Part shown: positions 3,027 through 6,914 of the stretch, piece by piece
Layout of the letters: the number at the start of each line of letters is the position of its first letter
Position numbering within the stretch: position 1 is the stretch's first letter
DNA from: an uncultured Bacilli bacterium
GTDB taxonomy: Bacteria > Bacillota_I > Bacilli_A > RF39 > UBA660
DNA length: 33,692 nt
Direction of reading: 5' to 3'
Assembly: GCA_944350445.1 (NCBI GenBank)
Contig: CALVOW010000018.1
Location: forward strand, 1 to 33,692
Notes under the pieces: model-generated
Told to the model about the DNA's origin: nothing
The model's input: only the letters and a program-made list of their open reading frames with translations
Database searches by the model: none
Made by a program: the position numbers and the translations under genes

Positions 3027-5411
3027 ATGAAATATGCTTTAATATTTAGGAAATTAATAGTTAATAATATAGCTTATTACCAAGCAATTAATAAAGTAAG
3101 TGGGATAGAAATAGAAGATAATAGATTACATGTTACCTCAGGTATTTATGAAAATCAAGATATATCATCTATGTTTAGTAATGATTTTTTGGTTTATTTT
3201 GAAATTGCCGAAGATACTTATCAAAATATAAATGTTGATAAAACTTTATTTTTCAAAAAAGTTAAAAATCAAATTTTACCTTTAAATGATTTTCAAGAAG
3301 AAAATAGTGTTTTAATGGCTTTTTATAAAAAATTTCATGATTTTCGCTTAATACCTGACTATGATTTAAATGCTTTGATAGAAAGATCAAAAGTTATGCT
3401 AAATAAAAAAATTATTGGTCAAGATAAAGCAATTTCCAAAATTTTAAAGAAAATTTATAATAATCAAATGTTTTTTCAAAGTGATTTAGATTATAATGAT
3501 ATTCTTCGTGGAAAAAGTAATATTTTAGTATTAGGTCCATTTGGAACTGGTAAATCAACTATTAAAGATATTTTAATGGAAACCCTTGATCCCATTCCTG
3601 TTGTTTCTTATTCCCTAACAGGAAATTATCAAATAGATATTACAGAAATTATTAGAAAATTATATATGGTAAGTGATGGTAATTTATTTTTAGCTGAACA
3701 TGGAATTGTTATCTTTGATGGTATTAGTTCAATGAATTCTAAATATATAGATACAGATACGGAATCATTAAATGTTTATTTAAAAACATTAGAGCAAATA
3801 ACAAAAACTAAAATGATATATATGAGTAGTGAAGATAATAATCATCTATCTTTTGATTATTCAAAGATTACTAATATTTGTATGATTGATAATGATTATG
3901 ATTATGATAGTGTTCACAAAGAAGATTGTTTTTACACAAGAATTAATGAGGAAAGTTTAGAAGAACTTGGTTTAAATTATGATTTTTTAAGAGAACAATT
4001 TGATGGAGAAATTGTTTTTATGGAAGAAATGACTAATGAATTAGCTTTAAAAATTTTAAAAAACAAAGATGTATCACCTTTATATGCAATTAAAAGAGTT
4101 TTAGAATTACAAGGAAAAAAAGTTCGCGTTAGTAAAAATTTTGTTTCCAAATTAATAAATTATGGTTTAAATTCTGAAGATGGTTTCACAGGTATTATAA
4201 GACTCTTAAAATCAATACTTCAAAATAAAAATTTAAATAATAGTGTTATTTACTTTCAAGAAGAAGATTTTCAAAAAGTAAATATTGGAACTATTTTAGC
4301 TCTAGATGAAGATGAGGAATATTTACCATCTAAAAATGTTAATAGTTCTTCAAAATATGATTTAAAAGTTAATGTTAAAAAGGGAACAATTAATAATTTA
4401 ACGGTTTTAGATACGGTTTTAAAAATAAAGGAAAATATAAAAGGGCAAGATGAACAAATATTTTTCTTTGTTAATGCTTTCTATGAACATATTATGGCTC
4501 GTTATAAAGGATTTACTAATCACGAGTTAAATCAATTAAAATCAAATGTTTTGCTAATTGGTCCAACAGGCGTTGGAAAAACGGCAATTGTTTCGAATTT
4601 AGCGAGAATCTTTAATTTGCCATTTCAAAGAGCTATTGCCCCAAGATATTCACAAAGTGGTTATGTTGGAGCCAATGTTGATTCCATCTTAAATGATTTA
4701 GTTGAGGCAGCTGGTGGTGATATAAAAAAAGCGGAACAAGGAATTTTATATATCGATGAAGTTGATAAAATAAGTGCCACTCATGATAAAGTAGATATGG
4801 GACTTGGCGTTCAACATGAACTATTAACTTTAATTGAAGGTGATAAAAGAACGATTAAAATTGCTGATATGTTTAATCCTGAGTTAACTTTTGATACTTC
4901 TAATTTATTTGTGGTGGCAACGGGAGCTTTCGATGGGTTAGATAAAATTATCAAACAAAGAGTAAAAAAAGAATTAGGAGCGGATAAAATAGGTTTTACG
5001 AACGAAAAAAATGTGGTTAGTTCTTCGAAAATTACTAGTGATGACTTGTATCAATATGGTTTTGATAGACAATTTGTAGCGAGATTTCCCAATCGGATTA
5101 GGTTAAATAATTTAAATGAAGATATATTTTATCAAATTGTAAATGACTCTAAGGATGGTTATATTAAATTAGTACTTAAATCTTATCAAAAAAGTGGCGT
5201 TGTTGTTTCTTTAAGCGAAGGATTTAAAAGAATGTTAGCCAAAAAAGCTTTTGAGAAAAAAGAAGGTGCTAGAGCTATCAAAGGTGTTTTTGAAGATATA
5301 AAAGCAGTAATTGATTACACCATTCAAACACAAAATATTTCTGAGGTTATTTTAGATGAAGATAGTTTCGAAGAACCTAAAAATATTACTTTTGTCAAGA
5401 AAAGAAAATAG
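3027..5411 (+). CDS. Tandem AAA+ protein, ClpX-like unfoldase with degenerate first ATPase
   Basis: About 794 aa from ATG 3027 (AGGTGAT site just upstream; a further upstream ATG at 2991 lies in the terminator T tract and is unlikely). Two AAA+ modules are visible. Module 1 has a Walker A GPFGTGKST near residue 170, but its Walker B reads IVIFDG, so the catalytic Glu is replaced by Gly, and no clear sensor-II Arg is seen. Module 2, from about residue 480, has GPTGVGKTA, an intact GILYIDEVDKIS Walker B, a GYVG pore loop, ARFPNRI as the arginine-finger region and a GARAIKG sensor II. This is the ClpX pattern. An IGF tripeptide occurs before the arginine finger, where ClpX carries its ClpP-docking loop. 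The ClpX zinc-binding N-domain is absent; instead there are about 120 novel N-terminal residues. Probably a protein-remodelling ATPase; substrate unknown. Confidence 0.8.
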   Translation: MKYALIFRKLIVNNIAYYQAINKVSGIEIEDNRLHVTSGIYENQDISSMFSNDFLVYFEIAEDTYQNINVDKTLFFKKVKNQILPLNDFQEENSVLMAFYKKFHDFRLIPDYDLNALIERSKVMLNKKIIGQDKAISKILKKIYNNQMFFQSDLDYNDILRGKSNILVLGPFGTGKSTIKDILMETLDPIPVVSYSLTGNYQIDITEIIRKLYMVSDGNLFLAEHGIVIFDGISSMNSKYIDTDTESLNVYLKTLEQITKTKMIYMSSEDNNHLSFDYSKITNICMIDNDYDYDSVHKEDCFYTRINEESLEELGLNYDFLREQFDGEIVFMEEMTNELALKILKNKDVSPLYAIKRVLELQGKKVRVSKNFVSKLINYGLNSEDGFTGIIRLLKSILQNKNLNNSVIYFQEEDFQKVNIGTILALDEDEEYLPSKNVNSSSKYDLKVNVKKGTINNLTVLDTVLKIKENIKGQDEQIFFFVNAFYEHIMARYKGFTNHELNQLKSNVLLIGPTGVGKTAIVSNLARIFNLPFQRAIAPRYSQSGYVGANVDSILNDLVEAAGGDIKKAEQGILYIDEVDKISATHDKVDMGLGVQHELLTLIEGDKRTIKIADMFNPELTFDTSNLFVVATGAFDGLDKIIKQRVKKELGADKIGFTNEKNVVSSSKITSDDLYQYGFDRQFVARFPNRIRLNNLNEDIFYQIVNDSKDGYIKLVLKSYQKSGVVVSLSEGFKRMLAKKAFEKKEGARAIKGVFEDIKAVIDYTIQTQNISEVILDEDSFEEPKNITFVKKRK

Positions 5412-5471: not shown

Positions 5472-6914
5472 ATGAATAAAAAAACAATTTTATTTTTAAT
5501 TAATGGCTTTGGAGTTGAAAAGAAAGAATCATATCCAATTTATGATGAGAAACTTATGCCAACTTTTGATGAACTTTCTAAAAAATATTTATTTGTTAAT
5601 GATATGGTTATTTCGAAAGTAAGTAATTACTACGATGCTTATCGTAATGCTAGTTTGGATGTCAATGAACTTTATAATTATACTATTATTGATTCTAGTA
5701 TTGCTACTAAAACATTTACAACTAATAAAGTATTAACTGAACTTCAGAAAGTACATAATGAAAAAAAATCTAATTTACATATTTTTTGTTTAGTAGATAC
5801 TAGTTTAAAAATAGTTTCCCATTTAAAAGAAGCTTTAAAAATTTTAAATCCTAATAAAGATAAAAAGATTTTTTTACATTTGATTATTTCTAGTTCTAGT
5901 ATTGAAGATTATAAAGATTTAGTGGAAGTTTTTAGTCATATTAATATCGAGCTTGCTGATTATGCTTCTATTGGTTTTATTATGGGCTTATCGGCAATCG
6001 ACAATAATGCTAAACAAGTTGACTTAAATTTCTTTTTTAAGATGTTTATTACTAAGGTAGGAGAAAAATGGCAATCATTTACGCAACGCTTTGATGTTTT
6101 ATATGCCGTAAAAACACCTCCACGTGATACCAAACCTTTTATTGTTAATTCTAATTTTGAATTTAGTAAAGATGATATTTTCTTCTTTTTTAACTATGAT
6201 ACAATCAATTTAGAAAATTTCATTGATACTTTAAGTAATATTTCTTTTGGTGAAGAAAAAAATAGTTTTTCATATTATTCTTTATTTTCAGTTATATCTA
6301 AGCTATCTATTCCCTTTATGTTTGAGACAAGTGTAGCTAAAAACTGTTTAGTCTCTAATTTAGAAAAAATTAAGGCAACTGGCTTAATTCTTTGTAAAAA
6401 AGAAAAAGTGGGAATAATTAATTATTTTTGTAATGGTCTTGTAAATAGTGCCACTAAGACTTTAACTTTTATTGATATTGATCCTTATATAAATAATCCT
6501 AAAGCTTTGGTAGAACTTATTAATAAAGTTACAAATGAATTTATTATTTTAAATTTTGAACTTGATGAATGTAAGACAACTATAGAACTTAAGGAATTAT
6601 TAAAAATGCTTGATAATAATATTAAAGCTTTAGAAGAAAATCGAAATGGTAGTAAATATACTTTAATTGTTTCATCTTTATATGGTATGAATAAAACTTT
6701 AACTACTGAAAAAGATAATCCTTGTCAAGTTATATTTACGGGAAAAGTTCCTTTCTTATATATTGATGATTTTATTACTAAGAAAAATTATTTAGTAGCT
6801 CCAGGGACTATTAATGATCTTTTTAAAACCGCTTATAAAAGTATTAATAAAGATTATAAAGGAGATTCACTGGTTGAAAAGAAAAATGGTTTATATAAAT
6901 TATTTTTTAAATAA
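5472..6914 (+). CDS. Phosphoglycerate mutase-like protein of the alkaline phosphatase superfamily, probably catalytically dead
   Basis: 480 aa, close to the usual length of cofactor-independent phosphoglycerate mutase (iPGM). The N terminus (ILFLINGFGVEKKE) matches the iPGM opening but has Asn where the metal-binding Asp of DGWG/DGFG sits. The region that should carry the catalytic Ser (GNSEVGH) has no counterpart. The late TADHGN metal motif is replaced by VSSLYGM. The C-terminal pattern of a Val-Pro-Phe strand followed by APGTINDLFKTAY and GDSL is kept, as in iPGM. The fold is therefore probably conserved while metal sites and nucleophile are lost: a pseudoenzyme or a strongly diverged relative. 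ATG 5472 follows AGGGTGATTTA. Function unknown. Confidence 0.65.
   Translation: MNKKTILFLINGFGVEKKESYPIYDEKLMPTFDELSKKYLFVNDMVISKVSNYYDAYRNASLDVNELYNYTIIDSSIATKTFTTNKVLTELQKVHNEKKSNLHIFCLVDTSLKIVSHLKEALKILNPNKDKKIFLHLIISSSSIEDYKDLVEVFSHINIELADYASIGFIMGLSAIDNNAKQVDLNFFFKMFITKVGEKWQSFTQRFDVLYAVKTPPRDTKPFIVNSNFEFSKDDIFFFFNYDTINLENFIDTLSNISFGEEKNSFSYYSLFSVISKLSIPFMFETSVAKNCLVSNLEKIKATGLILCKKEKVGIINYFCNGLVNSATKTLTFIDIDPYINNPKALVELINKVTNEFIILNFELDECKTTIELKELLKMLDNNIKALEENRNGSKYTLIVSSLYGMNKTLTTEKDNPCQVIFTGKVPFLYIDDFITKKNYLVAPGTINDLFKTAYKSINKDYKGDSLVEKKNGLYKLFFK

Follow-up and report, generated by a model that had tools for sequence, protein, structure and literature searches.

A double-AAA protein of the ClpX type with a degenerate first module in an uncultured RF39 lineage of Bacilli

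The window analysed here, a stretch of 33,692 nucleotides from the genome of an uncultured RF39 bacterium (contig CALVOW010000018.1), contains a gene (3027..5411, forward strand; ATG at 3027, stop codon ending at 5411) for a 794-amino acid protein, P0001, which carries two AAA modules of the ClpX type behind an N-domain unlike that of ClpX. Module 1 is degenerate, apparently able to bind nucleotide but not to hydrolyse it, while module 2 retains the residues expected of a working motor. The architecture of P0001, the pattern of residues lost and kept, and the absence of both canonical ClpX and the RKH loop can be read from the sequences themselves. We propose that P0001 may be a substrate-specialised, double-ring unfoldase, in which a static, nucleotide-binding upper ring would stand above an active lower ring, a reading that we consider fairly probable.

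Domain architecture and motor residues

The N-domain (residues 1-113; 3027..3365) is beta-rich, is predicted with high confidence (AF2 pLDDT 92), and stands in place of the zinc-binding domain of ClpX; no match to it was found in PDB (Foldseek best E 0.42), Pfam or NCBIfam. Module 1 (residues 114-415; 3366..4271), supported by hhalign to module 2 and by its profile against PDB, is followed by a disordered linker (residues 418-443; 4278..4355; pLDDT below 50) and by module 2 (residues 452-794; 4380..5408), supported by its PDB match to ClpX and by Foldseek; all of these features lie on the forward strand. The two modules are homologous in profile–profile comparison (hhalign probability 99.6 over 280 columns, 19% identity) and both find ClpX as their best PDB match, which places the two-module observation beyond chance and bears out the initial annotation, where two AAA modules and an N-domain other than the zinc domain had been described. 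For module 2, the best PDB match by sequence is ClpX at 6e-45, and its fold resembles ClpX with a TM(target) of 0.70-0.88 (Foldseek). P0001 as a whole scores 244.4 bits against the NCBIfam ClpX model, below the cut-off of 359, and far less (94.6 bits, cut-off 362) against HslU.

Residue conservation was scored over 15 sequences of one genus (P0001 and 14 orthologues). Module 1 has a Walker A motif (GPFGTGKS, residues 170-177; 3534..3557) that conforms to GxGK[ST] in 15/15, and G173, G175, K176, S/T177 and the Walker B residue D231 are invariant. The Walker B motif of P0001 reads IVIFDG (Asp231 and Gly232 at 3717..3722), with Gly232 at the position of the catalytic Glu; across the set this position is occupied by G, T, L, S, N or D, never by E. 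The arginine-finger column is variable and lacks Arg in all 15 sequences, F or M stands where the sensor-2 Arg would be (15/15), and neither a GYVG pore loop nor an IGF docking loop occurs in module 1 of any orthologue. These losses, shared by all 15 sequences, mark module 1 as a predicted non-hydrolysing ring of the ClpX type, not of another AAA clade. The initial annotation had reported a retained Walker A with Gly in place of the Walker B Glu, which is correct, although the losses extend further than it claimed (arginine finger, sensor-2 Arg, GYVG and IGF loop); its suggestion that module 1 only binds nucleotide or serves as a scaffold agrees with the residue pattern throughout the set. In a sixteenth, full-length orthologue (G131), which comes from a different genus, decay of module 1 has gone further and reaches Walker A (GTYGCNKE), so nucleotide binding by this module is not needed in every lineage.

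Module 2 is predicted to be active. It contains Walker A (GPTGVGKT; 4560..4583), in which K518 and T519 are invariant (15/15), a GYVG pore-1 loop (residues 545-548; 4659..4670) with an aromatic Y or F in 14/15, Walker B (ILYIDE, residues 573-578; 4743..4760) with D577 and E578 in every sequence, an arginine finger (R686; 5082..5084; 15/15), and the sensor-2 residue R749 (5271..5273), which a single member lacks (14/15). Missing is the RKH loop, which has been described as exclusive to ClpX-family enzymes and required for substrate recognition (PMC7112951): it is found in none of the 15 orthologues, versus 10/10 canonical ClpX proteins of the class. The earlier statement that module 2 keeps all ClpX motifs therefore holds for GYVG, Walker A and B, the arginine finger, the sensor-2 Arg and IGF, but fails for this ClpX-specific loop.

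The IGF loop and ClpP

The tripeptide Ile655-Gly656-Phe657 (4989..4997, forward strand) lies between sensor 1 and the arginine finger, as in ClpX, within an exposed, disordered loop (residues 654-661, pLDDT below 50) and not in a buried helix, so that the initial annotation placed it correctly where ClpX binds ClpP. G656 and F657 are invariant (15/15), and the residue preceding them is I, V, L or M in 13 sequences and A in two. The exposed loop, the invariant GF and the presence of ClpP in 17/17 genus members make docking to ClpP plausible. Ile at the first position is absent from most genus members, and in E. coli ClpX the substitution I268L severely weakens ClpP binding (PMC7112951). Besides Lon and a single ClpP, the P0001 genome encodes a ClpC-like protein that carries an IGF motif and a ClpB-like protein that does not. 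On this sequence evidence we regard delivery of substrates to ClpP by the double-AAA protein, or its docking there, as possible, with the balance close to even.

Across the taxonomic family, ClpP was found in 126/145 genomes; it is missing from 8 of the 53 genomes that have a ClpX-like gene and from 11 of the 92 that have none (Fisher p = 0.62), indicating that the presence of a ClpX-like gene does not track that of ClpP. In the eight ClpP-less genomes with ClpX-like genes, 11/11 ClpX-like proteins nevertheless keep an hGF (IGF-like) motif in the docking loop; the motif is thus not diagnostic and does not prove docking to ClpP. No ClpC-type unfoldase was found in these eight genomes, whereas five of them retain a ClpB that lacks the hGF motif; the loss of ClpP therefore looks real and not a mere consequence of draft gaps, although the drafts are only 85-97% complete. 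Either the IGF-like motif is conserved for more than ClpP alone, or the loss of ClpP is too recent for the motif to have decayed.

The same observations favour an alternative in which P0001 would be a ClpP-independent remodelling chaperone, its IGF-like loop retained to make some other contact, either inside the ring or to a partner other than ClpP, as in the ClpX-like relatives from ClpP-less genomes. ClpP in the P0001 genome already has a ClpC-type partner with an IGF motif available to it, which also fits this alternative. Against it, ClpP is present and highly conserved throughout the genus (mean identity 91%), and the IGF motif is missing from yeast Mcx1, a ClpX whose host has no ClpP (PMC10886707); moreover, the ClpP losses in the family may be recent, or may partly reflect genes missed in drafts. 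We take the alternative seriously but consider it rather improbable, and retain the double-ring unfoldase as the preferred reading.

Distribution, divergence and genomic context

Orthologues of P0001 with 39-51% identity are present in 14/16 other genomes of the genus, and the reading frame is open in all 15 sequences; the contigs that carry them are labelled as uncultured Bacilli or Clostridia, most of them of gut or rumen origin. In a scan of 395 genomes of the class, with a limited number of candidates scored in each, matches over the full length came from this genus only. The P0001 genome is a draft metagenome assembly (94% complete, 46 contigs), and the absences reported here rest on drafts. 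Whether it also encodes a normal ClpX had been raised in the initial annotation: no zinc-finger ClpX (PF06689) was found there, and none of the 145 sampled family genomes has a ClpX above the NCBIfam cut-off, from which we conclude that the double-AAA protein is probably the derived ClpX of its lineage. Divergent ClpX-like proteins occur in about 50 of the 145 family genomes, and most have a single module.

Several further observations were made among these genomes. A tmRNA tag predicted by ARAGORN in the P0001 genome (GNNNKLAFA; contig C2, L179 1501-1846) is very short and ends in AFA, versus LAA in E. coli, and such a tag may suit a genome that lacks canonical ClpX. Elsewhere, one protein joins a partial IrrE/ImmA-type (Peptidase_M78) domain to a ClpX-like module that follows it (L034 1498-2865, reverse strand), and a contig labelled Opitutales encodes a 561-amino acid ClpX-like protein (L080 4692-6374) that falls beside canonical ClpX in the tree. 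In one subgroup, a conserved gene of ∼117 codons follows the ClpX-like gene (L085, L086, L091, L092, L104, L110, L111); its complete copies encode 116-117 amino acids, with 105 remaining at the edge of L092, and the one product tested had no Pfam match.

Within the genus, mean pairwise identity reaches 91% in ClpP but is far lower in P0001 and its orthologues: 50% in module 2, 43% in module 1 and 37% in the N-domain. Between families of the class, canonical ClpX averages 58%. Such divergence, together with the broken module, could be read as relaxed constraint on a decaying ClpX on its way out. We think this very unlikely, as the frame is open in every sequence, the motor residues of module 2 and the Walker A of module 1 are invariant, and the gene has been kept in most genomes of the genus.

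In phylogenetic analysis, all first modules form one clade and all second modules another. The long-branched tree is compatible with (p-AU 0.57), but does not single out, one clade uniting every module of the double proteins, as would be expected under tandem duplication. Descent of module 1 from an AAA clade other than ClpX, its catalytic Glu having shifted position, would accord with its very long branch and unsettled position in the tree; we give this next to no credence, since its profile matches ClpX first in PDB (2e-20), then HslU (1e-9) and other AAA proteins no better than 2e-6 – which answers the question, posed at the outset, of whether it aligns better elsewhere – and no acidic residue adjoining Asp231 is conserved among the 15 sequences.

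Directly after the unfoldase gene lies a gene for an iPGM-like protein (5472..6914, forward strand), which is probably not an ordinary phosphoglycerate mutase (TIGR01307 E 4e-15, 55 bits vs a cut-off of 331). The two genes adjoin in most genus members; the iPGM-like gene is on another contig in G002 and is not adjacent in G014, so the link is not universal. Past the iPGM-like gene come DUF1538 and P-II-like genes in several genus members (e.g. L067 9954-12101), though not in the window.

Several other readings were considered and set aside. The tig gene adjoins clpX at 9/10 canonical loci and is near the double gene only in G001; because relatives show rearrangements in the stretch that follows tig, this synteny carries little weight as evidence of descent from clpX. 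A common N-domain with the single-module ClpX-like relatives was rejected (hhalign probability of only 18%). An origin in phage or mobile elements found no support: viral contigs yielded no relative, none of the phage or plasmid records matched P0001 over 80% of its length, and the neighbouring genes look ordinarily chromosomal. As for a defence system, PADLOC returned just weak P-loop matches.

Proposed mechanism and comparison with known systems

In the mechanism that we propose, a single-ring, ClpX-derived unfolding motor would have become a two-ring machine. Module 2 would form the working ring, hydrolysing ATP and pulling polypeptide through by means of its aromatic pore loops, while module 1 would form a stacked ring that holds nucleotide without hydrolysing it or gripping substrate, helps the hexamer to assemble, and builds a substrate vestibule where ClpX has its RKH loops. 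The novel N-domain would select clients. The ring would probably still dock the genome's single ClpP through its IGF loops, and the protein may act, at least in part, as a ClpP-free chaperone or remodeller. We infer the hexamer, the stacking of the rings, nucleotide binding by module 1, client selection and ClpP docking, the last held in roughly equal belief and doubt. In a bolder and doubtful version, the second ring would have arisen when a ClpX lineage duplicated its module internally and the upper copy died; this lineage would belong to a larger radiation of ClpX-like proteins that lost the zinc domain and RKH loop and whose IGF-like loops dock a partner other than ClpP.

Canonical, single-ring ClpX shares with module 2 its fold, Walker A and B, GYVG, arginine finger, sensor 2 and the position of the IGF loop; P0001 differs from it in having two AAA modules, in lacking the zinc domain and RKH loop, in its fast evolution, and in its sub-threshold score against the ClpX model. 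The single-module ClpX-like proteins of the family also lack the zinc domain and RKH loop, and most have an IGF-like motif, but they have one AAA module and N-terminal regions whose relationship to that of P0001 is doubtful. ClpA, ClpC, ClpE and ClpB are similar in outline, with two stacked AAA modules (the stacking being presumed for P0001) and a client-binding N-domain; in P0001, however, both modules are of the ClpX type, and module 1 is dead and unrelated to Clp D1. A precedent for the proposed arrangement is Pex1/Pex6, in which a catalytically dead, ATP-bound D1 lies above an active D2 (PMC10518020), as would be the case in P0001; this likeness is an analogy only, as Pex1/Pex6 is a eukaryotic heterohexamer of a different AAA clade. 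In the open-access literature searched, where coverage is incomplete, no double-AAA ClpX whose first module is dead turned up, nor did anything on ClpX in RF39.

In P0001 and its relatives, the derivation of a predicted double-ring AAA+ machine from a single-ring one would be recent enough to trace, with an intact and a degenerate module in the same chain and 16 orthologues available for comparison. In addition, a family whose ClpX-like proteins carry IGF-like motifs with or without ClpP makes the purpose of IGF loop conservation testable.
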